From: Meiothermus cerbereus DSM 11376
GTDB lineage: Bacteria; Deinococcota; Deinococci; Deinococcales; Thermaceae
Length of the DNA: 36,111 nt
NCBI RefSeq assembly: GCF_000620065.1
Contig: NZ_JHVI01000031.1
Span: 1 to 36,111 of the forward strand
Direction of reading: 5' to 3'
Positions 13,246-30,427 of the stretch are shown here, piece by piece. The stretch's first letter is position 1, and each line of letters begins with the position of its first letter. The position numbers and the translations under genes are program-made. The notes under the pieces are model-generated. The model did not search any database, had not been told where the DNA came from, and worked only from the letters and a program-made list of their open reading frames with translations.

Positions 13246-14055
13246 TTAGCGCACCACCGTACCGGCCCCGGCCAGCGCAGCCGAAATCGGGTTCTCGATA
13301 CGGGCATCGCCAAACACCACCCGGCCCACCCCGCCCTGCACCGCCTCTACTGCGCCCAGCACCTTTTTCTTCATGCGGCCCTGGGCCACGCTCATGTACT
13401 GGGGGTCGCCCACCTGGGCCGCTGGAATTTCGCGGATCAGGCTCGACTCATCCGGAAAGTCCGCTAACAAGCCCGGAACATTGGAAAGGAGCAACAGCGC
13501 CTCGGCCCGGAAGGCCCTCGCCAGCATGGCCGCCGCCGTATCGCCGTCGGTGTTGATGGCCTCGCCCTGGTAGGACACCGCCGGCGGGGTCAGCACCGGT
13601 AGGTAGCCCGCGTCCATCAACAGGGTCAGCAAGCCCGTGTTGACCTTTTCCACCGAGCCCGTGTAGTCGCCCCGGTGAATTTTTATTTTGCCGTTTTCAA
13701 TGTACTTGACGGCATCTTTGCGCTTACCCTCGAAGATGCGGCCATCCAGGCCCGAAAGGCCCACCGCGTTCACACCCTCGCGCTGCAAAAGCTCTACGAT
13801 GCGCTTGTTCACCAGGCCGCAGTAGACCATCTCGAAGATTTCCAGGGTTCTGCGGTCGGTGAGGCGGCTGGTCAGGCCGCCGGGGTGGGTGAGAAACTGC
13901 GGCGGGTGGCCCAACGCCTCGGCTATTCGGTTGGTCTCGCTGCTGCCCCCGTGCACAACGATGAGCTTTTGACCCGACTTCCAAAGCGAAGCGGTATCTT
14001 TAGCCACTGCCTCGTAGTTGATGCCTTCCGAACCGCCTACCTTGACTACAATCAT
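13246..14055 (-). CDS. lysZ: [LysW]-aminoadipate kinase
   Basis: 269-residue amino-acid kinase of the ArgB fold. MIVVKVGGSEGIN and IVVHGGSSETNRI are the N-terminal phosphate/substrate loops, VNAVGLSGLDG follows in mid-protein, and INTDGDTAAAMLARAF is the nucleotide-binding region. In the LysW pathway it phosphorylates the delta-carboxyl of alpha-aminoadipate carried on LysW. ArgB from the acetyl-arginine route is the main alternative, but the surrounding lysT-U-W-X-Y genes fix the lysine role; a dual role in arginine synthesis is possible in relatives. It is the last gene of the lysine run, 38 nt after the ITP/XTPase gene. Confidence 0.93.
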   Translation of the reverse strand: MIVVKVGGSEGINYEAVAKDTASLWKSGQKLIVVHGGSSETNRIAEALGHPPQFLTHPGGLTSRLTDRRTLEIFEMVYCGLVNKRIVELLQREGVNAVGLSGLDGRIFEGKRKDAVKYIENGKIKIHRGDYTGSVEKVNTGLLTLLMDAGYLPVLTPPAVSYQGEAINTDGDTAAAMLARAFRAEALLLLSNVPGLLADFPDESSLIREIPAAQVGDPQYMSVAQGRMKKKVLGAVEAVQGGVGRVVFGDARIENPISAALAGAGTVVR

Positions 14056-14093
14056 CGGCCAACCTCTAGCCTGCCATCATATTGGGTAAGGCT

Positions 14094-14615
14094 CTACTCT
14101 GGATAGAGCTCCGGGCGCAAAAACGGTGGCAGGGCCAGCTCGAGGGTGTGCCGCCAGAACTCCACCCGCTCGACGCGGGAGAGGGTGAGGATGCCCACCG
14201 CCCCCAGGGCCTTCTTAGTGTCTTTTTGGCCCACCAGGTCGTCCATAATGGGGCCCAGTTCCTCGCCTTGGCGCAGCCGCTCCCCCACCACCGGCGGCAG
14301 CAAGACCGAGCCCCCTCGAGCCATGCCCCGGCGTCCGTCGGCGCGCAGGATCACCGCGATGTTGAAAAGCCAGCTCCCGTAGGCATTGAACTCCACCCCG
14401 GCTTCCAGGCCCAGCCCCCAGGTGGCGCCGGGCTGGGCCAGGGCCGCCCTGGCGCGGTTTTCCGCCCCCAGGCGGGTTTCCTCGTAGCCGATGGGCTGCA
14501 CACGCACCCCGCTGGGCACCTCCACGCCGCTTACTTGCAGCCCCGGAAACAGCTCCGCAAACACCAGGCGCACGGGTTCGAGCTTGGCCGGATTGGTAGA
14601 GCCGACAACCACCAT
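14094..14615 (-). CDS. inosine/xanthosine triphosphatase (YjjX/DUF84)
   Basis: 173 residues with VVVGSTNPAKLEPV at the N-terminus (the SxNxxK motif of house-cleaning NTPases), then GYEETRLGAENRAR and WGLGLEAGVEFN, as in YjjX. The family removes ITP/XTP produced by purine deamination, which is relevant at high temperature. It lies inside the lysine operon: the stop of lysY is 3 nt upstream and lysZ starts 38 nt downstream. No link to lysine chemistry is known to me, so co-transcription is probably incidental. Confidence 0.85.
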   Translation of the reverse strand: MVVVGSTNPAKLEPVRLVFAELFPGLQVSGVEVPSGVRVQPIGYEETRLGAENRARAALAQPGATWGLGLEAGVEFNAYGSWLFNIAVILRADGRRGMARGGSVLLPPVVGERLRQGEELGPIMDDLVGQKDTKKALGAVGILTLSRVERVEFWRHTLELALPPFLRPELYPE

Positions 14616-14618
14616 GGC

Positions 14619-15677
<1,059 letters not shown>

Positions 15678-15811
15678 CTAGAAAAAGGCTCTATCGAAAA
15701 AGCTTTTGGGGAGTTGCGCCCTGATTTCTCCCAATCCAGCGTTTTGCGATGCCCTAAAGCATCCTCGAGCCTTTGCGTGCGGTTCGCCTGCCGGCAACCC
15801 CACTCACAGCT

Positions 15812-16654
15812 CTAGCGACGGATGCTCCAGGCGTACTCCAGTATCTTGGCTGGAATGTCCACCCCAGTGGTGCTTACAGAGTTTTTGAACTCCATGGTGT
15901 GGTTGACCTCATTTACCAGCAAGCCTCGAGGGGACTCGAACAGGTCAATAGCCACCACCCCACCCCCCACCGCTTTGGCCGCCGTTACAGCCAGCGCGGC
16001 CAGTTCGGGCCTCACCGGGCAGTTGGAGGCCTTGCCCCCACGGGCGGTGTTGGTAATCCAGTGGTCCGAACTGCGGTAGATGGCCGCAATGCAGCTATCC
16101 CCTACCACAAAAGCCCGGATGTCCCGGCCTCCTTTTTCCACCAGCTCTTGTATGTAATAGAGCTGGTGCTGGTAGCCGCCCAGCACCTCCTTGTGCTCGA
16201 GCACCGTTTCGGCGGCATCGCGGTCGCGGATGAGCGAGAGCAGGCGGCCCCAGCTCCCCACCACCGGCTTCATCACCACCGGATAGCCCATCTGCTCGAT
16301 GAGCTTCAGGGCTTCCTCGGCTTCGGTAGCCAGGGCGGTCTTGGGCTGGGGAACCCCATGTGCTGCTAAAGCGCAGCTGGTGGCCCACTTGTCCCCGCAA
16401 ACCTCGATGACCTCCGGGGCATTGACCACCGGAATCCCCAGACTCTTGAGATAGCGCGAGACCGCCAGGCCCTTGCTCTGTGAGACCAGGCGCTCCACCG
16501 CACAGGTAACACCCTCGAGCTCCGGTGGACGCTCCCCCAGGCGCATGGGCATCTGTTTGGCATAGATTTTCTTGAAAGGAATGCCCAGCCCCTCAGCGGC
16601 TTTGAAGAGCATCTCCTCGTCGGGGCGGATGCGGTCGTACAGAATCGCTAGCAT
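15812..16654 (-). CDS. lysX: [LysW]-aminoadipate ligase (ATP-grasp)
   Basis: 280 residues, the length of Thermus LysX, from ATG 16654 ([16 protein letters not shown]). The RimK-like ATP-grasp fold shows [16 protein letters not shown] (ATP-binding loop), [25 protein letters not shown] (substrate-specificity segment typical of LysX/ArgX) and [15 protein letters not shown] (metal/ATP residues). It ligates the alpha-amino group of aminoadipate to the C-terminal Glu of LysW, protecting it for the rest of the pathway. A TTG codon at 16660 gives a 2-residue longer form but is less likely. A 10-bp inverted repeat lies between it and lysW. Confidence 0.94.
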
Positions 16655-16674
16655 ACGCAAAGGGGCGGGTCGTT

Positions 16675-16714
16675 GGAGGGCAGGGTCTGGGGCTTACCTC
16701 CCGGCCTGCCCTCC
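16675..16714. repeat. 10-bp inverted repeat between lysW and lysX
   Basis: GGAGGGCAGG (16675-16684) and CCTGCCCTCC (16705-16714) pair perfectly around a 20-nt loop. On the minus strand it falls 11 nt after the lysW stop and about 20 nt before lysX. No T tract follows. It could protect the lysW mRNA 3' end or reduce read-through, raising LysW carrier levels over LysX; this is inference. Confidence 0.65.
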
Positions 16715-16724
16715 AGGCCCAACC

Positions 16725-16889
16725 TTACTCGCCCCAGTCCTCCGCTTCTTCGGGGGCCGCTTGTAGTTTGAGGGGCTCCAACCCCACCACCTCGAGCTCC
16801 GCACCGCAGGTTTCGCAAACCACCAGCTCCCCCAGTTCGGGGTTCTCCAGCTCAATCGGGCTTCCGCATTCCACACATTCGGCTGTCAT
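16725..16889 (-). CDS. lysW: LysW amino-group carrier protein
   Basis: 54 residues, the exact size of Thermus LysW. Zinc ligands are CVECG and CETCG in the N-terminal half, and the acidic tail ends EDWGE, the conserved C-terminus whose terminal Glu is the attachment site for aminoadipate. It acts as a scaffold handed between LysX, LysZ, LysY and later enzymes. ATG 16889 has AGGAG about 5 nt upstream (within aaaggagagacc). It lies between orfE and lysX in the minus-strand operon. Confidence 0.95.
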   Translation of the reverse strand: MTAECVECGSPIELENPELGELVVCETCGAELEVVGLEPLKLQAAPEEAEDWGE

Positions 16890-16952
16890 GGTCTCTCCTT
16901 TCCTCACATTGCTATGCTTCAAGCCGCCGGCCACCGGCCATTGGCTGTTAGC

Positions 16953-17264
16953 TCAGGCCAGGTCTTCCTCGTCCTCTTCAATATCCGACCAGTCGGGCGT
17001 AAAGCGGTGGCCACACTCCGGGCAGACCACCTCGTCTTGGCTATCCACCTCGAAAGTTAGACCGCACTCCGGGCAGTCTACAAAAAGTCCCTCCTCGCCG
17101 TCTTCGATAACCACCACTTCCAGCGGGTCGGTGGATAGAATCTGCAGGTAGGCCCCGCAGGACTCACACTCGAAAAAGTCGTCGGGGGTGAGCTCCTCGA
17201 GGTCTTCAGCAAGGAGGTAGTTGGCTTCACCGCATTCCGGACAGATCACTTCCAGGTCTTCCAT
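16953..17264 (-). CDS. acidic double zinc-ribbon protein of the lysine operon (OrfE position)
   Basis: 103 residues, very acidic (tail DWSDIEEDEEDLA). Four Cys pairs make two ribbons: ICPECG with ECESCG in residues ~8-39, then DCPECG with VCPECG in ~63-85. LysW has one such ribbon plus an acidic tail, so this looks like a LysW-like tandem duplication, but it lacks the EDWGE/EDWGE-like terminal Glu. It lies between lysU and lysW, the place of the uncharacterised orfE in the Thermus cluster. Function unknown; a chaperone or interaction partner for LysW enzymes is a guess. Confidence 0.7.
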   Translation of the reverse strand: MEDLEVICPECGEANYLLAEDLEELTPDDFFECESCGAYLQILSTDPLEVVVIEDGEEGLFVDCPECGLTFEVDSQDEVVCPECGHRFTPDWSDIEEDEEDLA

Positions 17265-17285
17265 AAAAACCTCAACCCCTTCAGT

Positions 17286-17789
17286 TTACCCGCCGGTGCG
17301 CTCGCCAGGGAAACGCCCGTACTTGCGGTAATACTCCAGAATGCTGCCTTCCTTGAGGGCTTCCAACAAAAAAGCCGGTGGGGGCTTTAGCAGGAAGGTT
17401 TCGGCCCCCCGCCGCAGAATGCCCTGCTCTAAATCCAGCTCCACCTCATCGCCATCCTGCAAAGCATCTACCACCTCTGGCGCCTCGAAAGGCATAATGC
17501 CCAGGTTAACCAGGTTGCGGTAGAAGATGCGGGCATAGCTTTTGGCGATAATGGCCTTGAGGCCCAGCTTGCGCAGGGCTTCCGGGGCATACTCCCGCGA
17601 GGAGCCCAGGCCTGTGTTCTTGCCGCAGACCAGGATGTCGCCTGGCTGGTAGTTGGGTGCAAAATCGGGGCGAAGGTGGGCAAAGGCGTAGGTATGAAAC
17701 CTGTCCTCGCCCACCATAAAGGGCGCATACTTGCCCGGCAGAATGTCATCGGTGTTGATGGCATCGCCAAACTTCCAGACTCTAGGCAT
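17286..17789 (-). CDS. lysU: homoaconitate hydratase small subunit
   Basis: 167-residue swivel domain of the homoaconitase/IPM isomerase family. INTDDILPGKYA is the N-terminal signature, GKNTGLGSSREYAPEAL holds the GSSRE substrate-binding loop, and KSYARIFYRNLVNLG follows. With LysT it interconverts homocitrate/homoaconitate and homoisocitrate. Its ATG overlaps the last codons of lysT by 8 nt, so the subunits are translationally coupled. LeuD is the paralogous alternative, excluded by the operon context. Confidence 0.93.
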   Translation of the reverse strand: MPRVWKFGDAINTDDILPGKYAPFMVGEDRFHTYAFAHLRPDFAPNYQPGDILVCGKNTGLGSSREYAPEALRKLGLKAIIAKSYARIFYRNLVNLGIMPFEAPEVVDALQDGDEVELDLEQGILRRGAETFLLKPPPAFLLEALKEGSILEYYRKYGRFPGERTGG

Positions 17790-19035
17790 AAGTTGCCTCC
17801 TCCAAAGCCTCCGGGGTGGTGATGTAGCCGGCTACCGCAGTTGCGGCGGCCACCCGGGGCGAGGCCAGGTAAATCTCGGCGTCGGCTGCGCCCATCCGTC
17901 CCCTAAAGTTGCGGTTGGAGGTGCTCACGCACACCTCGCCCGGTGCCAGCACGCCCTGGTGCCGTCCCATACAAGGCCCGCAGCCAGGGGTTCCCAGCGT
18001 AGCCCCGGCTTGCAGCAAGGTGAGCAGGGTGCCGTCGGCGGTGGCCTGCTCGAGCACCTGCGACGAGGCCGGAATAACCAGCAACCGTACCCCCGGCGCC
18101 ACCTTACGGCCCTTCAGAATTTCGGCCACCTGGTGTAAGTCGTCCAGCCGCCCATTGGTACAGGTGCCCACAAACACCTGGTCTACCTTTTTGCCCCTTA
18201 CCTTTTCTACCTCTTCCACGTTGTCCACGTAAAACGGCACCGCAACCCGTGGGGTAAGGTTAGAGAGGTCAATCTCGACTTCCCTGGTATACACCGCGTC
18301 GGGATCGGGCGACAGCCAGCCGGGCACGTCATACATCTGCAAAATCTCTCCGCTGGGCACCACCAGCCCACACTTGGCCCCGGCCTCCACGGTCAGGTTG
18401 GCCAGGGTCAGGCGTTGGCTGCGGGTCAGGGACTCGGCCCCATCCACCAGGTGCATCTCGATGCTCATGTAGGTAGCCCCATCGGCAGTGAGCAGCCGAA
18501 CCATCTCCAAAGCCGCATCCTTGGCCGTTGTGCTGGGTGCAAGCTGTCCCCGAAAAGTTACCTTGACCGTTTCTGGCACGCGCAACCAGGTACGCCCCGA
18601 GGCGGCGGCCAGTGCGATGTCGGTAGCCCCCATCCCGCTACCAAAGCAGCCGATACCCCCATAGGTGGTGGAGTGGCTGTCCGAGCCCAGCACGATGCCC
18701 CCCGGCAGGGCCAGCCGCTCTTCCACCAACACCTGGTGGCAGATACCCCGCCCCACGTCAAACACCCGGCAGCCGTACTGCTTGCCCCACGCCCGGATTT
18801 CCTTCTGGGCCTTGGCCACCTCGACGTTGGCGGCGGGGGCCACATGGTCAATCACGATGGACACCTTTTCAGGGAAGCGCGGGGTGGCCTCGAGCTGCTC
18901 CAAGCGCTTGAAAAAGCTCCCGGCAATGGAGTCCACCACCATCACCTGGTCTACCTCAACCACCACCAGTTCCCCCGCCCTGACCTCACGGCCCGCTCGC
19001 TTGGAAAGAATTTTTTCCGCTAAAGTTAGCCCCAT
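17782..19035 (-). CDS. lysT: homoaconitate hydratase large subunit
   Basis: 417 residues of the aconitase superfamily. VVVEVDQVMVVDSIAG, IVIDHVAPAANVEVAKAQ, GSDSHSTTYGGIG and, for the [4Fe-4S] cluster, FVGTCTNGR plus TPGCGPCMGRH. It catalyses (de)hydration of homocitrate with LysU. ATG 19035 (MGLTLAEKIL) is preferred over ATG 19047: it matches family N-termini and has GGGGGA a few nt upstream. It starts 34 nt after the homocitrate synthase stop. Confidence 0.94.
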   Translation of the reverse strand: MGLTLAEKILSKRAGREVRAGELVVVEVDQVMVVDSIAGSFFKRLEQLEATPRFPEKVSIVIDHVAPAANVEVAKAQKEIRAWGKQYGCRVFDVGRGICHQVLVEERLALPGGIVLGSDSHSTTYGGIGCFGSGMGATDIALAAASGRTWLRVPETVKVTFRGQLAPSTTAKDAALEMVRLLTADGATYMSIEMHLVDGAESLTRSQRLTLANLTVEAGAKCGLVVPSGEILQMYDVPGWLSPDPDAVYTREVEIDLSNLTPRVAVPFYVDNVEEVEKVRGKKVDQVFVGTCTNGRLDDLHQVAEILKGRKVAPGVRLLVIPASSQVLEQATADGTLLTLLQAGATLGTPGCGPCMGRHQGVLAPGEVCVSTSNRNFRGRMGAADAEIYLASPRVAAATAVAGYITTPEALEEATYA

Positions 19036-19069: not shown

Positions 19070-20308
19070 TCAGTCCAGGTTCTCCAGCCGGGCAGTCGGC
19101 ACCTCCTCGGGCAAGGCGTGGCGCAAAAGGCCGTGGGCTTCTGCGATTTCCAGCAAAAGTTCCTCGGGTTTCTTGCTGCGCCCAATTTCAGCGGTGCGGC
19201 TTTTGAACTCCTGCGCCACCTGCCTAGCCTGTTCTTTGCTGATGATAAAGTTCTCCACTTCCTTCAGGTAGTAGTAAATCAGGTTCCAGCCCGATAGGGG
19301 GCCCAGAAGTAGCTGGTTTTTGTCCACCCCAAAGTCGTGCAGATTGTGCGCCTCGTAAACTTTTTTCTCGTTCAAAACTGCTTTCTGGTGTACTCCGGCG
19401 GTGTGCGTGCGGTTGGTCAGCGAGACCGGCTCGGTATAGGGCACCAGCGTACCCAGAATGGAGGCCATAAGCACATTAAGCGGATAACACTGGCTCAGGT
19501 TGTACTGCTTTGGAATTTCGGGATAGCGCTTGGAAAGGTTAAACAGCACACCCGTAACCGAAGGAATGCCGGAGCGCTCCGCCAGGCCCCAGATGGAAGC
19601 ATCCACATAACGCACCCCCGCCCGTACCGCCGCAATTACGTTGGCTAGGGCCAGGCCCCGGTCGTTGTGAAAGTGGCACTCCAGGGCGGCGTTGGGGTAG
19701 CGCTGGCGCAGCTGGGCCACCACCGCACTCACATCTTCGGGCTCCGCTACCCCCACGGTATCGGGCATGCCCAGGGTGTTCACATAGGGATAAACAGCAT
19801 CGTACAGGCAAAAGATGTCCTCGAGCGGGGTGCGGAAGGCGTCCTCGGCGCTAAAGCGCAGGTAAAGGTCGGGGTGGGCCTTACGGGTTGTCCCAATCAC
19901 CTCCTGGGCCAGCTGAACCGACTCTTCCAGGGATTTTTGGGCATTGTGCTGCTGGGCCAGGGGCGAAACCCCCAGGTAGAGGTTCAGGCCGTTGCAGCCT
20001 GTCTCGAGGGCCCGCTCGATATCATCCAGGTGGCAGCGGCAGTGGGCCAAAAACATCAGGGGCTTCTGGGTGAGGGCCCTGGCATGAGCTATCAGCTCCT
20101 GCACGTCCTGCGCCTCGGCCACCCCGACCACCGGCGAAAAAAACTCGAAATGGGTTACCCCTAACTCTATCAAGCCAGCCATCAGCACCTTCTTCTCTTC
20201 CAGCGTAAAGCGGTACTTCTCGGTGTCAAAGAGCAGCGGCGACTGCTGGCCATCGCGAAAGGTGGTGTCCACGATTTCGATACGGTGTGTTGAGGTGAGT
20301 GCTGCCAT
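19070..20308 (-). CDS. hcs: homocitrate synthase (LeuA/HMGL-like family, divergent type)
   Basis: 412-residue HMGL-like (alpha-isopropylmalate/homocitrate synthase) TIM barrel. IEIVDTTFRDGQQ is the N-terminal catalytic segment, ALECHFHNDRGLALANV the metal-binding HxH, and THTAGVHQKAVL the distal His loop. Position at the head of the lys operon and its attenuator with Lys codons argue for homocitrate synthase (2-oxoglutarate + acetyl-CoA), the committed step. The sequence departs from the Thermus/yeast LYS20 form I know (DSTLREGEQ start), so it may be a different subfamily. ATG 20308 has AAGGAGG only 2 nt upstream; ATG 20320 is the alternative but abuts the terminator T tract. Confidence 0.82.
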   Translation of the reverse strand: MAALTSTHRIEIVDTTFRDGQQSPLLFDTEKYRFTLEEKKVLMAGLIELGVTHFEFFSPVVGVAEAQDVQELIAHARALTQKPLMFLAHCRCHLDDIERALETGCNGLNLYLGVSPLAQQHNAQKSLEESVQLAQEVIGTTRKAHPDLYLRFSAEDAFRTPLEDIFCLYDAVYPYVNTLGMPDTVGVAEPEDVSAVVAQLRQRYPNAALECHFHNDRGLALANVIAAVRAGVRYVDASIWGLAERSGIPSVTGVLFNLSKRYPEIPKQYNLSQCYPLNVLMASILGTLVPYTEPVSLTNRTHTAGVHQKAVLNEKKVYEAHNLHDFGVDKNQLLLGPLSGWNLIYYYLKEVENFIISKEQARQVAQEFKSRTAEIGRSKKPEELLLEIAEAHGLLRHALPEEVPTARLENLD

Positions 20309-20320
20309 AACCTCCTTCAT

Positions 20321-20351
20321 AAAAAAAACCGCCCGCAAGCAGTGTGCGGGC
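20321..20351 (-). terminator. attenuator terminator before hcs
   Basis: On the minus strand a 7-bp stem GCCCGCA/TGCGGGC (7-nt loop) is followed by GG and eight T residues, ending 12 nt before the hcs ATG. It lies downstream of the promoter and leader peptide, so it regulates instead of ending a gene. An upstream GCCCGCGCAA stretch and a GCCGGG/CCCGGC pairing can compete with this stem, giving plausible antiterminator folds. Confidence 0.85.
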
Positions 20352-20377
20352 CGGGATACGCAGTTGCGCGGGCTAGC

Positions 20378-20422
20378 TCAGACCAGCCCCCCGGCACTGG
20401 ATTTTTTTGCACTTAAGATCAT
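20378..20422 (-). CDS. lysine-operon leader peptide (two adjacent Lys codons)
   Basis: 14-codon ORF MILSAKKSSAGGLV, with AAA AAA at codons 6-7 and a TGA stop 27 nt before the terminator hairpin. Its ATG is 9 nt after the -10 box, so the transcript is nearly or fully leaderless. Scarcity of charged Lys-tRNA would stall the ribosome at the Lys pair and favour read-through into hcs. Leader-peptide attenuation of the lysine cluster has been described for Thermus thermophilus; here all parts are visible directly. Confidence 0.85.
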   Translation of the reverse strand: MILSAKKSSAGGLV

Positions 20423-20431
20423 CCTGGGGGA

Positions 20432-20461
20432 AGTGTACCCGTGCTCTGCTGGGGCTGTCAA
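20432..20461 (-). promoter_or_regulatory. promoter of the lysine operon
   Basis: TTGACA (20461-20456), an 18-nt spacer and TACACT (20437-20432) on the minus strand: the strongest sigma-70-type match noticed in the window. Transcription should begin at about 20422-20426, at the leader peptide start. Confidence 0.88.
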
Positions 20462-23860: not shown

Positions 23861-24916
23861 TCAGCTTTGCGTCAGCGGCGCAGGCAACAGGAAGGCCCCT
23901 TCGTGGACACACTGTAAAAATACTCTGACCACATCGGGGTCGAATTGAAAACCCGCCTGGCGCTTAATTTCTGCAACAGCCTGTGGCACAGGCCAGGCCT
24001 GTTTGTACGGGCGTCTACACACCAGGGCGTCAAAGACATCTACTACTGCTACAATTCGGGCCTCCAGGGGAATGGCTTCGCCTTTGAGGCCGTCTGGGTA
24101 GCCTCCACCATCGAAGTGTTCGTGGTGCGAGCGCGCAATGCGGCTGGCCATTTGTAAGTAAACCGACTTACCCCCCTCAAGCAGCGAAGCACCCACCACA
24201 GTATGGCTCTTCATGAACTCATACTCTTCTGGGGTAAGCCGGGAAGTTTTGCGGAGTATGGCGTCCGGTATTGCAATCTTACCTATGTCGTGCAGGGGAG
24301 CCGCCTGACGAAGCGCTTCCACCACAGCGGACTCCAGGCCCAGGCCCTGCGCAATTTTGCAGGCGTTTTCGGCAACCCTGTGCACGTGCTCACCCGTATC
24401 GTCATCGCGAAATTCGGCGGCGTGCGCCAGGCGTCGAAGCACATCCAGATGCGCTTCGTGCAATTCCTGGGTACGGGCCCGCACGGCTGCCTCCAGGCGC
24501 GAATTCTCATCTTTCAGCTGCAGGTGCAGGTAACGGGTCTGGAGCAAGCGACGCACCCGTAAGGCAACCTCGAGTAAGTCAAAGGGTTTTTGCAAAAAAT
24601 CTTCAGCCCCAAGCTTCAGGGCTCGGCGCTTGGCTTCGGCTGTGGGGTCGGCGGTAAGCACAAGCACCGGCAGGTATTCACCGTCCACCTGGCGCTCCTG
24701 CAGGTACTTGAGTATTTCAAAGCCATTCCGTTTGGGCATGTGCAAATCCAGCAGAATCACGTCGGGCCGAAATCTGCTCAAACACTCTTCAAAGCGGGTT
24801 GGATCCGTGGTGGCGTAAATGCGGGAAAACCCCACACGCTCGAGGGTTCTTTGCAACAAAGCCACGTTTGTCGGCTCATCATCCACAATAAAAACGGTCA
24901 TGTCTTCTAATTGCAT
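23861..24916 (-). CDS. response regulator with HD-GYP c-di-GMP phosphodiesterase domain
   Basis: 351 residues from ATG 24916 (AAGGA 7 nt upstream; ATG 24931 and 24901 also in frame). Receiver domain residues 7-125: acidic pair D12/D13, phospho-acceptor D57 in VILLDLHMP, T88 and K110 in FLQKPF. A coiled linker spans ~130-160. HD-GYP domain ~160-345 with LHDIGK (HD at 209-210), then HHEHFDGGGYPDGLKG and DVFDALVCRRPYK, so the catalytic metal ligands are intact. It should hydrolyse c-di-GMP when phosphorylated. No histidine kinase is adjacent. It is divergent from the protease/Cas7-like operon that ends in a diguanylate cyclase, hinting at opposing control of the same signal. Confidence 0.92.
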   Translation of the reverse strand: MQLEDMTVFIVDDEPTNVALLQRTLERVGFSRIYATTDPTRFEECLSRFRPDVILLDLHMPKRNGFEILKYLQERQVDGEYLPVLVLTADPTAEAKRRALKLGAEDFLQKPFDLLEVALRVRRLLQTRYLHLQLKDENSRLEAAVRARTQELHEAHLDVLRRLAHAAEFRDDDTGEHVHRVAENACKIAQGLGLESAVVEALRQAAPLHDIGKIAIPDAILRKTSRLTPEEYEFMKSHTVVGASLLEGGKSVYLQMASRIARSHHEHFDGGGYPDGLKGEAIPLEARIVAVVDVFDALVCRRPYKQAWPVPQAVAEIKRQAGFQFDPDVVRVFLQCVHEGAFLLPAPLTQS

Positions 24917-25358
24917 GGTTCCATCCTTCATGGCCAAAACAAATCCCCCGACACTTACCTTAGTGCCTGCAAAAAAAACGTGGGCAAATTCAACCAAGGG
25001 GGCCATTGCTTATGGGTAATTTGTGGAGTATACCAGGCTTGGCAAAATAATGTGGGTTATTTGCACTTTAGGAAGCCCGTTTGTAGATAAGTGCGTGCTG
25101 GGCGAGTTTTTTGGGATTCGCGGACAGCCCCTATGGCTTGGCTGCGGTGGGGCACGTTGGTGCAAATATAGTGTGGCACGGGGTTTATGGCCCCCGCTTC
25201 AAGTGTGTGCTATCTGAACCAAACCGCCCGACCCGGCCTGCCTAAGCTCATGACAGGTGGTCAGCTTTGCAAACGCTTGCACACTCAAACCAGACCAAGT
25301 CCCACCCCATACGGGTGTCAAGGTGCAGGGGTACAGGGTTGACCGAGGCGGCTATGAA
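24917..25358. promoter_or_regulatory. long divergent intergenic region with promoter candidates
   Basis: 564 nt separate the HD-GYP and protease genes. On the plus strand TTGCTT-17 nt-TATACC (25006-25034) and TTGCAC-17 nt-TAGATA (25061-25089) are reasonable promoters; the second would give a leader of about 385 nt. Small stems CACCC/GGGTG (25303-25317) and GTCAA/TTGAC (25317-25343) precede the larger structured element. No convincing protein gene is seen: the frame at 25267-25665 is open but lacks an RBS and any recognisable motif. Confidence 0.4.
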
Positions 25359-25446: not shown

Positions 25447-25467
25447 TCGTTCGAAAAGCTAAGTTCG

Positions 25468-25483
25468 GAGGTGATGATCCGTG
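25468..25483 (+). promoter_or_regulatory. strong ribosome binding site fixing a GTG start
   Basis: GGAGGTGAT (25468-25476) is a near-complete complement of the 16S 3' end and lies about 4-5 nt before GTG 25481, fixing the protease start despite the rare codon. It sits just downstream of the pseudoknot, so the fold could gate access. Confidence 0.8.
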
Positions 25484-27262
25484 ATTCCCAATCTGGGCAC
25501 CAAGGGAAACGGGGAGCCAGTGGTGCAACCGGCCGAACGCTATGGCGTTACTGCTGCGCACTGGATAGCCCCTATACAACAGAAGCTCCTTGGATTAGCA
25601 CTGATGGTTCTGGCTGCAATAACCTTAACCGCGTGCTCATCGAATCAAAGTCAGGTAGGCATTGAAGTTACGCCTCAAGCCGTACCTTATGTGGGGGGGC
25701 AGGTAAATCTTAGCTGGAATATAGAGGGGGCCCAGTTTTATACGGTTCGTAGCGAGCCCCCGCTGCCCGACCTGCCCCTTATCACCACCAGCTCTTCTGT
25801 CAGCCTCCAGCTCGAGGGCAACCAGAGCCCCGACCCTAAAAGTTATCGGGTAATTATTGAGGCCAATACCCCCAAAGGCCTCGAGCGCCTCATCGTCAAC
25901 CTGCGCGTAGAGGGCAGGTCGGTCTGCTCCAGCAGCATCAAATCGCAAGCGCAGCTTCCTGCGGCCAAATCGGTGCTAAAAGCGACAGGGTTGGGCCACT
26001 TTGACGTACCGCACGTGGCAGGACGCCTGATCGTCTATCACAAGAGCGGCTTAAGCCTGCAAAGCCAAATCGCCAGCGCCCAAAGCCTGGGGGCCCAGTG
26101 GGTGCGGGATCTGGGGGGTGGCTGGAACCTGTACCGCACCCAGCCCGGCCAAGAGGCTAAGGTGGCCCAAAGTCTGTATCAGCACGGGCTGGGCCAGTAC
26201 GTGCAGCCCGAGTACCTCTACCAGCCCGACAGCCTGGCCGTGCCCCCCCATAACCGCAGCTACCAGCTAGAACAAGCGCCCCTGTTTAGGCTTATGAACC
26301 TTGAGCAGGCCTGGCAAAAGCTAGATGAAGTGAAACCGGGGTGCGATGCACCGGTAGTCGCCGTGGCCGACACCGGGTTTTATACCCAGCGGGGCGACCT
26401 GGCGCCCAATTTGACTCCCCAAAATAGCTGGTTGGACGTAGTGGGAGACGAGATCGAAAACCCCCGCCCCGTCCGAGGTGCAGTAGAACCAAAACCCGGC
26501 GCCGGCGCCAACCACGGAACCCAGGTGGCGAGCATCATCGCGGCCACCACCAACAACGGCTCGGCCCTGGCTGGCACTGCCTATAACCTGCTGCGCGTAC
26601 TGCCTATCAAGGTTTTCGATGCCAAGCGGCAGGCCGGTACGCTGCAAGTGGCCCAGGCGCTGGAGTACGCCGCTGGGGCAACCCAAATCGCCGGGCAGGT
26701 TTTCATCAACCCCACCCCGGCTCAGGTTGTCAACTTATCGCTTTCCATCTCCAAACCGGGTTTCCGCGACCCCTACCTCGAGCAGGTACTCGAGCAGGTT
26801 ACCCAGCAGGGTGTGGTGGTGGTGGCCTCGAGCGGCAACGCAGACCTGCCCTCGGTGGGCTACCCCGCATCCTCGCCTTACGTCATCGCAGTAGGCGCCA
26901 CCGACATCAACCAAGCCCGGGCAAAATGGTTTAGCGGCTATGCATCCAACTATGGCGCCGAGCTCGAGTTTGTTGCCCCTGGCAGCGGTGTACCAGTAGC
27001 CTACGGGCCCAGCAAGGACGACTACGCCCTGGCCTATGGCACTTCCGCCTCTGCACCTTTCATCAGCAGCGCCATCGGCCTGTATCTCCTACAGCAGCAG
27101 CAGCTTGGCAAATCTCACACAGACCGGCTGACCCAGGTACGCAACTGCTTGAAAAGCGCTGGGCAAAACGCTTCGGCCTGGAACAGCCAAACCGGCTACG
27201 GCCTCGTGGACGTGGCCAAGGTGGTGGATCCCCACAACACCGCCTGTTTTCCTAAGGAGTAG
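25481..27262 (+). CDS. lipoprotein subtilisin-like serine protease (S8 family)
   Basis: 593 residues from GTG 25481. A ~33-residue polar N-region precedes a hydrophobic helix (LLGLALMVLAAIT) and the lipobox LTAC (Cys52), predicting an acylated protein on the outer face of the membrane. Residues ~60-150 form a beta-rich domain, ~165-260 a propeptide-like region, and ~285-580 the S8 catalytic domain: D297 in AVADTGF, H345 in NHGTQVAS, S522 in YGTSASAPF, with VVASSGN for the oxyanion Asn. The triad is complete. The Cas7-like gene starts 2 nt after its stop, with its RBS overlapping this gene's end. Confidence 0.93.
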   Translation: MIPNLGTKGNGEPVVQPAERYGVTAAHWIAPIQQKLLGLALMVLAAITLTACSSNQSQVGIEVTPQAVPYVGGQVNLSWNIEGAQFYTVRSEPPLPDLPLITTSSSVSLQLEGNQSPDPKSYRVIIEANTPKGLERLIVNLRVEGRSVCSSSIKSQAQLPAAKSVLKATGLGHFDVPHVAGRLIVYHKSGLSLQSQIASAQSLGAQWVRDLGGGWNLYRTQPGQEAKVAQSLYQHGLGQYVQPEYLYQPDSLAVPPHNRSYQLEQAPLFRLMNLEQAWQKLDEVKPGCDAPVVAVADTGFYTQRGDLAPNLTPQNSWLDVVGDEIENPRPVRGAVEPKPGAGANHGTQVASIIAATTNNGSALAGTAYNLLRVLPIKVFDAKRQAGTLQVAQALEYAAGATQIAGQVFINPTPAQVVNLSLSISKPGFRDPYLEQVLEQVTQQGVVVVASSGNADLPSVGYPASSPYVIAVGATDINQARAKWFSGYASNYGAELEFVAPGSGVPVAYGPSKDDYALAYGTSASAPFISSAIGLYLLQQQQLGKSHTDRLTQVRNCLKSAGQNASAWNSQTGYGLVDVAKVVDPHNTACFPKE

Positions 27263-28156: not shown

Positions 28157-30427
28157 ATGAAACCTGGAGATCTTCCCAACACCAAACCCCTCTCTGGGAA
28201 AACCCGGCCCTATCAAGCCAAAAAGCCGCACAGGGGCCTGCTGGCTGTATCGCTGCTGGCAGCAGTGGCGGCGGTTCTGCTGCTCTGGCACCACTCCTTC
28301 CTGGCTTCGCCTCTGTGGATCTGGCTGGTGCTGGGCAGTACAGCTTTCCTCTCGTACAGGAGCAGGCAGGTTTGGCAGCAGCTGCTTTGGGGCCAGAAGG
28401 AAACCTCCAATCAGCTGGCCCTGCTGGTCAGCGCCTTGCAGGTGCTGTCGACCCTTCCCAGTCGCGATCAGGTGCTCAGGGCCATGCCCGAATTGCTCGA
28501 GCAGCAAGCAGAGCGCATCACGGTATGGCTGCCGCAAATAGACCGATTGCAGTTGTATTATTCCAGCACCCCGTCGGCAGCCAGTACCCTCGAGCAGAGC
28601 GTAGCTCAGCGGGCCTATGTGCAGGGTTCCATCGTGTATGAGGAGGAAACCGAAGGGTTTTCGCAGATGCCAAACACCCCCCGCAGGCCTCGCTGGCTAC
28701 AGCGGGTGCTTGCCAGAATTACGCCCGGCCCAGGTAGACAAACCCCACCAGACCGGCAACCCCCCAGCCGTTGTATGGCCATTCCCCTCTTCGAGCACGA
28801 TGAGGTTGCTGCTGTGGTATGCCTGAAGCGCCGCCGCGATTTTCAGCCTCGAGAACAGGTCTGCTTCGATCGCTTCGCCAAAACCGTAAGCAACCGCCTT
28901 ACCTGGATTGCCGAGCAAGCAGAAGCCCGGCTGCTTCATCAGCTTTCCATTTCACTGGCCGCTGCTGGTTCGGTAAAGGAGCTTGCCGAGCGGGCACTGG
29001 TGCTGCTGGCCTCGGGCCTAAACGCACCACACGGCGTCATCTTGCAACAACAGGGCCAGCAGTTACGCACTTTAGCTCAATACCAGGCAGTGCAAACCCC
29101 GGGTGCAGCCTGGAGTCCCCCCACATCCGCCAGCGAGCGCCTGTTCTGGAAGGTTTACCATACCGGGCAAGCTGTTTTTGTGGACAACCTGGCCCAGGAG
29201 GGCAGCCCCCTAGCCGACCATCACGGGAGCCTCGCAGTTCATCCCATTACCTTGCCCAACATGCCTCGAGCCCGCGTACTGCTGGGCCTGGCCCACCCGC
29301 AACCCCACCGATGGAAACCTTCTGAACAAAACCTGCTGAACCTGGCCTGCCGCTCTATTAGCCTGGCGCTGGAGGGCGCCCTGGCCCGGCAACGCCTGGA
29401 AACCGTGCTCGATCTATCGCACCAGGCCGCCCTGGATAACTCAGAGAGCCTCTACCAGCAGGTGTTGAATTCGGCAGTGGAGCTCATTCCAGGTGCAGAA
29501 GCAGGCAGTCTGCTCGTGCGCCAGGGGGAGCGCTTCCACTTTAAGGCTGCGGTGGGCTACGACCTCGAGCACCTCAAAGACATCACCTTTACTGAGCAGA
29601 ACCACCAGCAGTGGTACGGAGCCAACCTCGAGGGGTGGTATAGGGGCGAACCGCGCATCCTATCCAATGAATGGGCATCCATCGAGGCACACAGTGTTAA
29701 AAGCTCCTCGGCTGAGGCAGACCTGGCCGCTTATACCAGGCGTATCCAGTCCAACCTGGCCATTCCGGTGCTTTATCAAGGGCATGTGCTGGCCCTGCTC
29801 AATCTGGACAGCTTCCACGACACACGGGCCTTCGGCCAGGATTCTTTAGAGGTCGCTCGCTTTTTTGTTACCCCTGTGGCAACGCTGCTTCACCAGGCGC
29901 ACACCCGTCAAAGCCTGGCAGAAGCAGCCCTGACCGATTCCTTGACGGGCCTTGCCAACCGTCGGGCCTTTAATGCCTTTTTCGACGAGGAATTGGCTTT
30001 GGCAAAGCGGTATCGGCATCCATTTTCGCTGCTGCTGATGGACCTGCAAGGCTTCAAAGCCATAAATGACCAGCTAGGGCATGCCCTGGGCGACGAAGCC
30101 CTGGTAAGGGTGGCCGAGGCCCTAAAAAGGACATGCCGCGAATCGGACGGCTTATTCCGCTTTGGCGGGGATGAGTTTGCCGCCGTATTGCCTTATGCCA
30201 CAGAAGAACAAGCCCTTCATGCTGCCCAACGCTACGCCAGGGCCATCCAGGAAATCGGCATCAGAGGCTGTACCCTGGGGGTAAACATTGGCGTGGCCAC
30301 TTACCCCCTGGATGGCTCCGACAAGGAAACTTTGCTGCGGATGGCAGATGAGCGCATGTATGCAGCAAAAGAGCGACGCCTCAGCGTTTTGCAGGAGCCC
30401 GGCTTTACGCTCGACAGGCCAGGTTGA
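28157..30427 (+). CDS. membrane GAF-GAF-GAF-GGDEF diguanylate cyclase
   Basis: 756 residues. Two membrane helices lie at about 28-60 (GLLAVSLLAAVAAVLLLW, then LWIWLVLGSTAFL). Three GAF-like domains follow at roughly 80-255, 260-415 and 420-590, then a GGDEF domain from ~595 (DSLTGLANRRAFN). The active-site FGGDEF is at 669-674 and the inhibitory-site RxxD (RESD, 661-664) is five residues before it, so the enzyme should make c-di-GMP and be product-inhibited. ATG has AAGGGG 7 nt upstream. It is the fourth gene of the protease/Cas7-like operon and functionally opposite to the divergent HD-GYP regulator. Confidence 0.92.
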   Translation: MKPGDLPNTKPLSGKTRPYQAKKPHRGLLAVSLLAAVAAVLLLWHHSFLASPLWIWLVLGSTAFLSYRSRQVWQQLLWGQKETSNQLALLVSALQVLSTLPSRDQVLRAMPELLEQQAERITVWLPQIDRLQLYYSSTPSAASTLEQSVAQRAYVQGSIVYEEETEGFSQMPNTPRRPRWLQRVLARITPGPGRQTPPDRQPPSRCMAIPLFEHDEVAAVVCLKRRRDFQPREQVCFDRFAKTVSNRLTWIAEQAEARLLHQLSISLAAAGSVKELAERALVLLASGLNAPHGVILQQQGQQLRTLAQYQAVQTPGAAWSPPTSASERLFWKVYHTGQAVFVDNLAQEGSPLADHHGSLAVHPITLPNMPRARVLLGLAHPQPHRWKPSEQNLLNLACRSISLALEGALARQRLETVLDLSHQAALDNSESLYQQVLNSAVELIPGAEAGSLLVRQGERFHFKAAVGYDLEHLKDITFTEQNHQQWYGANLEGWYRGEPRILSNEWASIEAHSVKSSSAEADLAAYTRRIQSNLAIPVLYQGHVLALLNLDSFHDTRAFGQDSLEVARFFVTPVATLLHQAHTRQSLAEAALTDSLTGLANRRAFNAFFDEELALAKRYRHPFSLLLMDLQGFKAINDQLGHALGDEALVRVAEALKRTCRESDGLFRFGGDEFAAVLPYATEEQALHAAQRYARAIQEIGIRGCTLGVNIGVATYPLDGSDKETLLRMADERMYAAKERRLSVLQEPGFTLDRPG

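Follow-up and report, generated by a model that had tools for sequence, protein, structure and literature searches.

The region directly upstream of the homocitrate synthase gene (hcs) in Meiothermus cerbereus is very probably a leader-peptide transcription attenuator that senses charged lysyl-tRNA. This reading is based on the anatomy of the element, its conservation, the covariation of its stems and a constant spacing, and from these we infer the transcription start site, the stalling of the ribosome, the termination and the response to lysine. The whole 36,111-nt stretch of DNA that was analysed is called the window below, and all parts of the switch lie on its minus strand.

Anatomy of the lysine leader

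All parts of the switch, from the promoter to the T tract of the terminator, were found inside 141 nt. The promoter consists of a -35 hexamer TTGACA (20456-20461) and a -10 hexamer TACACT (20432-20437) with an 18-nt spacer, and it matches 10 of the 12 consensus positions. The leader ORF (20378-20422) starts with an ATG at 20422, 9 nt after the -10 hexamer, and encodes MILSAKKSSAGGLV in 14 sense codons followed by the stop TGA (20380-20378). Its putative sensing codons AAA AAA (Lys6-Lys7) are at 20407-20402. The 5′ arm of the antiterminator, GCCGGGG (20389-20395, nt 28-34 of the leader ORF), begins 12 nt after the first nucleotide of Lys6 and is complementary to the 3′ arm TCCCGGC (20350-20356, nt 67-73), and a further hairpin, GGGCTGG/CTAGCCC (20370-20389), lies within the antiterminator. 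The terminator hairpin GCCCGCA-loop-TGCGGGC (20351-20331) joins nt 72-78 with nt 86-92 by 7 pairs and is followed by GG and then by a T8 tract (20328-20321), which ends 12 nt before hcs (ATG at 20308). Thus, the consensus promoter, the 14-codon leader with adjacent Lys codons and the terminator with eight T residues that the preliminary description had named are all present, and so are its competing GC stems, yet the antiterminator and the terminator have just 2 nt in common in the window. Its word "complete" is too strong in the sense of the E. coli trp attenuator, because no separate 1:2 pairing region was seen in the leader. The lys leader is a two-state antiterminator/terminator.

The 1.2-kb region contained one promoter-like site, while 0.2 were expected in shuffles. 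The combined pattern "TTGAC + 16-18 + TANNNT + 5-10 nt + ATG" occurred a single time in the whole 36-kb window, at the lys leader. When the window was simulated 300 times by a first-order Markov model, the pattern came with a short ORF (8-30 codons) in 8 cases, none of which had Lys-Lys. With the start site predicted 6-7 nt after the -10 hexamer, the 5′ UTR would be about 2-3 nt long, so the leader is apparently leaderless, as judged from the promoter.

In the proposed mechanism, RNA polymerase would start about 7 nt after the -10 hexamer, and the 5′ end of the transcript would be within about 0-4 nt of the leader AUG, on which the ribosome must initiate without a Shine-Dalgarno site. When Lys-tRNA is scarce, the ribosome would halt with Lys6 or Lys7 in the A site, its leading edge lying at about ORF nt 26-29, slightly before GCCGGGG. 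The free GCCGGGG could then pair with TCCCGGC to form the antiterminator, which would occupy the base of the terminator stem and allow the polymerase to continue into hcs-hacA-hacB-lysW-lysX-lysY-lysZ. With ample lysine, the ribosome would reach the UGA (nt 43) and cover GCCGGGG, and the terminator would form and end transcription at the U8 tract.

Judged by its sequence, the leader precedes a LysW-type lysine operon, because the gene order reads hcs-hacA-hacB-lysW-lysX-lysY-lysZ. The hcs gene (19070-20308, minus strand) encodes 412 aa and has a Shine-Dalgarno sequence AAGGAGG just upstream. There are two candidate starts, ATG 20308 and an in-frame ATG at 20320, and ATG 20308 is likelier because the ATG at 20320 becomes ATA in relatives such as L004. 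The genes hacA, hacB, a 103-aa zinc-ribbon ORF, lysW, lysX, lysY, an NTPase-like ORF and lysZ follow at 13246-19035 (minus strand). The large and small homoaconitase subunits (hacA, hacB) were above the cut-off of PRK14023, and LysW (54 aa, C-terminal EDWGE) was above that of TIGR01206, while lysX, lysY, the NTPase and lysZ were named by reading their sequences. The 103-aa protein between hacB and lysW (16953-17264, minus strand) has two zinc-ribbon motifs, is under the LysW cut-off and has no EDWGE end.

The Rfam families matching the window were 16S rRNA and a distant c-di-GMP-II riboswitch only, and the scan gave no lysine riboswitch (L box) and no T-box. The c-di-GMP-II riboswitch (25458-25543, plus strand, 64 bits) lies at the start of an ORF that by eye is a subtilisin-like protease, and an HD-GYP-like ORF (23861-25006, minus strand) and a GGDEF-like ORF (28157-30427, plus strand), both also named by eye, are close to it.

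Conservation of the leader

All 50 genomes of the family had an HCS match. The upstream regions of 30 hcs loci were collected, every one of them contained a short ORF with AAAAAA, and a covariance model was built from these 30 loci. The model matched every one of the 50 family genomes and, over the whole phylum, 63 of 111 genomes; 30 of the matched genomes had been used for training, which leaves 33 of the 63 as independent matches. One model covered all 28 genomes of g4 and g5 (the Thermus-type genus) and all 22 genomes of g1-g3 (Meiothermus/Calidithermus), 30 of these 50 being the training genomes. Thirteen matches were outside the family (in families f3 and f4), and the 12 that were read lay upstream of an HCS-like ORF or, in L078 and L079, of a start that the script had not called. 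One match in the window's own genome (G000:C2:174965, L071, E 0.003) was inside a prs-like ORF by reading and was rejected as a false positive.

The claim that a leader-peptide attenuator of the LysW-type lysine operon has been retained was borne out by the spread of these matches, and the comparison with Thermus leaders that had been suggested with it gave the same answer, as all the g4/g5 genomes matched the one model.

We could parse 61 of the 63 leaders; the other two were L077, at a contig end, and L102. Lys-Lys was present in 61/61 parsed leaders. The -35 hexamer was TTGACA in 60 and TTGACG in 1, and the start codon was 6-11 nt after the -10 hexamer in all 61 and exactly 10 nt after it in 37. 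The -10 search was confined to 4-12 nt upstream of the start, which means that this range is partly set by the method, while the high -35 scores are not. The leaders had 12-16 codons (14 in 48 of them) and encoded 33 distinct peptides. Since Lys-Lys was constant despite 33 different peptides, it is the codons that are kept in lys leaders and not the peptide.

Transcription could also come from a second promoter upstream, with a long 5′ UTR, the ORF being read from a normal ribosome-binding site or not at all, and the terminator working alone or with a protein factor. The start site of the lys transcript is a prediction only, and there is an in-frame GTG just before the leader ATG in L011, L012 and L024, but the nearly invariant TTGACA and the distance from the -10 hexamer to the start codon mean that a transcript from that promoter would be too short at its 5′ end to include a Shine-Dalgarno site, and the window holds only one promoter of this pattern, so we regard such an upstream start as improbable.

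Among genomes with hcs and no model match, no such leader was present in 4 of 4 genomes of family f2, and the f4 locus L221 was cut by a contig end with the end of a terminator visible. Ten such genomes belonged to f5, and in four of them (L222, L223, L226, L230) a short ORF that starts with GTG or ATG and contains Lys codons was seen by eye directly after a promoter; in six it was not. In two Deinococcales MAGs with a Meiothermus-type HCS (L244, L245), inspection by eye showed a leaderless ORF ahead of a terminator, with one Lys codon in one case and three in the other. These sequence comparisons support the retention of the lys attenuator in Meiothermus and Calidithermus, in the Thermus-type genus and in further families of the phylum.

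Covariation, spacing and folding of the competing stems

Pairing was analysed in 24 diverse leaders, and the pairing of the inferred stems was compared with that after sliding by 1-3 columns. The antiterminator was paired in 87.4% of cells (34-66% when slid), with 5 cells changed on both sides, and the terminator in 92.7% (25-47% when slid), with 14 cells changed on both sides. For the inner hairpin of the antiterminator, the values were 73.2% of cells paired and 15 cells with changes on both sides. Examples of compensation are GCCGGGG/CCCCGGC versus GCCGGAGG/CCTCCGGC and CGGGGAGG/CCTCCCCG in the antiterminator, and GCCCGCA/TGCGGGC versus GGCCTGCG/CGCAGGCC in the terminator.

The overlap between antiterminator and terminator was 2-7 nt over 51 distinct leaders. 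In 47 of the 51, the distance from the first A of the Lys-codon A run to the start of the antiterminator was 12-13 nt, and this is where the front edge of the ribosome footprint is expected when the first Lys codon occupies the A site. By the rule of the script, 3 of 54 distinct leaders had no terminator (L015 and L083 through a wrong T run, L078 because it was trimmed short), and all were counted; the counts also include L013, L017, L073 and L074, for which the script chose stems other than those of the family.

Both Lys codons were AAA in 61/61 leaders, and the A run was 6 nt long in 42 and 7 nt in 19, while the Lys codons of the window's operon were AAG in 65 cases and AAA in 29, and those of hcs in L025 were AAG in 18 and AAA in 0. 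This preference for AAA AAA may slow the ribosome further, or the A run may have another role. Slippage of the polymerase or the ribosome on the A6-A7 run, in place of stalling at Lys, could set the share of ribosomes that reach the stop codon, and the constant A run with its invariant AAA AAA would fit this; slippage on longer A runs is known from T. thermophilus dnaX. But the related leaders of the same genomes have Thr, Asp/Asn, Trp or branched-chain codons and no A run, the thrS antiterminator is similarly placed, and the register of the antiterminator arms suits a stalled ribosome, so slippage seems very improbable as the basis of control. Control of the operon by a lysine riboswitch, a T-box or a repressor, with the short ORF being incidental, is hardly credible: an arginine repressor is involved in the T. 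thermophilus lysine genes and many lys promoters of Meiothermus, the window's excepted, have a GGTATACC palindrome between the -35 and -10 hexamers, but neither RNA class was matched in the window and the Lys-Lys of all parsed leaders would be left unexplained.

For the attenuator with stalling at Lys, a ribosome mask was applied to 30 leaders in equilibrium folding at 37 °C. For the window's leader, stalling at Lys6 or at Lys7 gave a probability of 1.00 for the antiterminator and 0.00 for the terminator base, and a ribosome at the stop codon gave 0.00 and 0.63, respectively. A clean switch was defined as antiterminator above 1/2 and terminator below 1/2 with the ribosome stalled at Lys6, and the reverse at the stop codon. 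Such a switch was found at equilibrium in 16 of the 30 leaders including the window's, and the other 14 did not show it, L015 among them through its wrong T run. In L019 and L021 the terminator won wherever the ribosome sat, and in L008, L009, L011 and L012 both stems coexisted. The terminators of L014, L016 (Calidithermus), L019 and L021 were so strong that equilibrium scarcely favoured the antiterminator, and in these leaders the order of folding during transcription may matter. The unrestrained fold of the leader also varied between relatives. Masked-ribosome equilibrium folding is the weakest part of the case for an attenuator and is not decisive.

Apparent replacement of hcs under a kept switch

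HCS of the Thermus type was found at E ≤ 1e-60 in 55 of the 111 phylum genomes, including families f2, f3, f4 and f5, and in 0 of the 22 genomes of g1, g2 and g3. The HCS of g1-g3 shared 55-57% identity with that of Candidatus Roizmanbacteria MAGs (L247-L249) and 31% with the Thermus type. In the g2 loci L019 and L021, the ORF that ends just upstream of the promoter resembles by eye its counterpart in the Thermus-type genus. The simplest reading of these sequences is that hcs was apparently swapped in place in Meiothermus/Calidithermus while the switch was kept.

Other putative leaderless leaders in Deinococcota

Matches of the covariance model beyond hcs included Thr-codon leaders before thrS and Arg/Lys leaders before lysJ. 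We therefore scanned five genomes (G000, which is the window's genome, and G001, G008, G029 and G058) for the pattern of promoter plus ATG. The pattern gave 23, 25, 33, 24 and 16 matches per genome and the reversed pattern 3, 7, 2, 0 and 1, which makes 121 versus 13 in total. Of the 121 places, 111 were read, and 10 in G001 and G008 were left out. By this reading, amino-acid synthesis or tRNA-charging genes were preceded by short leaders at 36 of the 121 places, a count that includes the weak leuC and argG leaders, and many of the remaining matches were ordinary genes that start near a promoter. Leaderless short ORFs before prfB (L116, L180) were rejected as attenuators, as CTTTGAC is present there, which we take to be the start of the RF2 frameshift.

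In G000, such leaders were found before thrS (MRSRPTTRPRENF), asd (MVWYTTTT), ilvB (MLLPSSLILVVVGLITRPTGDLV), aspS (MLRADNNL), a DAHP synthase gene (MQTSRGSASQNARFFGYFYWPVRPVRPA) and trpB (MRPRTPRSYKWHHQRWWRC), and also before hcs and leuC, and the G000 leaders had counterparts in G008, G001, G029 and G058. NCBIfam confirmed the G000 genes and the lysJ of G001, with aspS being a non-discriminating aspartate--tRNA(Asn) ligase. The long antiterminator of thrS leaders starts 9-13 nt after the first Thr codon, that of aspS leaders 15-16 nt after the first Asp/Asn codon in 4 of 5 genomes, and that of lysJ leaders 20 nt after the first Arg codon in two. The p values for leader codons assume amino-acid frequencies, and several thrS leaders reached only 0.02-0.1 each. 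The leuC leaders of the five genomes were weak (Leu counts not significant, p 0.2-0.6). The argG leaders of G001 and G058 had Arg codons and no terminator was found for them, and that of G000 had one Arg in 29 codons. Terminators were likewise not found by the script in the G008 ilvB leader or the G058 trpB leader. The stems it chose were weak in the G029 ilvB and aspS leaders, and the one it chose in the G058 leuC leader was internal to the ORF.

The aspS leaders of the five genomes (L114, L186, L205, L169, L193) encode MLRADNNL, MLRADDNL, MLGLRNDNS, MRLPQGNDA and MALAASRNNDT, and 4 of 5 have a G-rich/C-rich stem that overlaps the terminator. To our knowledge, there is no known attenuator with Asp/Asn codons. 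At E ≤ 10, the motif of the trpB leader, RTPRS[YF]KWHHQRW(W), had matches in 66 of the 111 genomes of the phylum, and many of these matches were weak; in G000 it is at C53:109943-109987. Among the 30 loci fetched (L251-L280), 26 contained the motif; their start codons followed a -10-like site by 6-10 nt, and many lay before a trpB-like ORF. Synonymous Arg, Thr and Pro codons are used freely in this leader, which by its sequences looks like selection on the peptide, and it is perhaps a Trp-sensing arrest peptide.

Some other features were seen in these promoters and leaders. In several Meiothermus genomes (L008-L013, L015, L111, L112, L183, L184, L200), the spacers of the lys, ilvB and leuC leader promoters contain the GGTATACC palindrome, which some carry as TTTGGTATACCAAA and which is possibly the operator of a shared regulator. 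An identical leaderless 9-codon ORF, MRFSARATL, precedes an aminotransferase-like gene in two Meiothermus genomes (L109, L138), and its start can pair with the terminator stem; at 1e-80, NCBIfam gave the gene no name. Two leaderless ORFs of 7 codons, MRKVRVF and MRKVRAF, are nearly identical and come from two further loci of two Meiothermus genomes (L127, L188), one of them about 185 nt before an S-layer-like gene.

Discussion

Taken together, we think it fairly likely that the Lys leader belongs to a lineage-wide attenuation network of leaderless leaders in Deinococcota for Lys (hcs and lysJ), Thr (thrS and asd), branched-chain (ilvB), aromatic (DAHP synthase), Trp (trpB) and Asp/Asn codons (aspS), in which the Lys leader keeps its codons only, the trpB leader keeps its peptide and may be an arrest peptide, and the lys switch was held while its enzyme was swapped for a foreign one. 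The analysis gives a comparative anatomy of the lysine attenuator over several families, with compensatory changes and a fixed distance between ribosome and antiterminator, which goes beyond single-species work. It suggests that ribosome-stalling control needs no Shine-Dalgarno start, and this may be a general form of amino-acid control in the lineage. The predictions are easily testable in Thermus. Two sharper questions are whether Asn/Asp codons control the non-discriminating AspRS and whether an arrest peptide is encoded by the trpB leader.

In the classical trp, thr and his attenuators of E. coli, the position of the ribosome on the cognate codons selects the antiterminator or the terminator, and their leaders have a Shine-Dalgarno site and a 1:2 pairing region. 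The logic of ribosome position would be the same in the window's leader, but neither of these two features was seen there.

Leaderless leader peptides are described for leuS, leuA, trpE, trpS, ilvBHC, thrS and metN in Streptomyces lividans (PMC8079986), and the ilvBNC attenuator of Corynebacterium glutamicum is discussed as a leaderless mRNA (PMC11857589). As described there, leuL, trpL, ilvL, thrL and metL of S. lividans and the C. glutamicum ilvBNC leader share with ours an ORF at the 5′ end of the transcript, cognate codons and hairpins; they differ in that the passages name no lysine member and several lack a clear U-tract terminator. In Sinorhizobium meliloti, peTrpL/rnTrpL likewise has a 14-aa leaderless leader peptide, which is made from the first AUG of the RNA (PMC7298713), but it is a Trp leader, and the peptide and the attenuated RNA act also in trans. 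With these cases and six or seven more in the window's own genome, the earlier statement that ribosome-stalling control seldom uses a leaderless leader peptide is not supported. A search among open-licence PubMed Central papers did not find literature on attenuation of Thermus or Meiothermus lysine genes or on a Deinococcota attenuator set, and passage searches of PMC3766115 and PMC3556520 gave nothing on the lys attenuator. The wider set of leaders may already be partly in print (Lopatovskaya et al. 2010, cited in PMC4833913).

On the evidence of its sequence, the window's leader is homologous to that of the Thermus-type genus, from which it differs in the peptide (MLARAKKLGRRGVG type there and MILSAKKSSAGGLV in the window), in the overlap of the arms (5 nt in most of the Thermus-type genus and 2 nt in the window) and in the HCS downstream, which is only 31% identical to the Thermus type. 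The HCS of the Thermus-type genus is nearly identical to PDB 2ZTJ/3A9I, which we take to be T. thermophilus HCS. Tsubouchi and colleagues are said to have described, in J Biol Chem in 2005, a leader-peptide attenuator of the T. thermophilus lysine cluster, and it has the same layout of a short Lys-Lys leader upstream of hcs with an antiterminator and a terminator. The lys leader is an added member of the kind of attenuator known from T. thermophilus, and the wider set of leaders is the less expected part.
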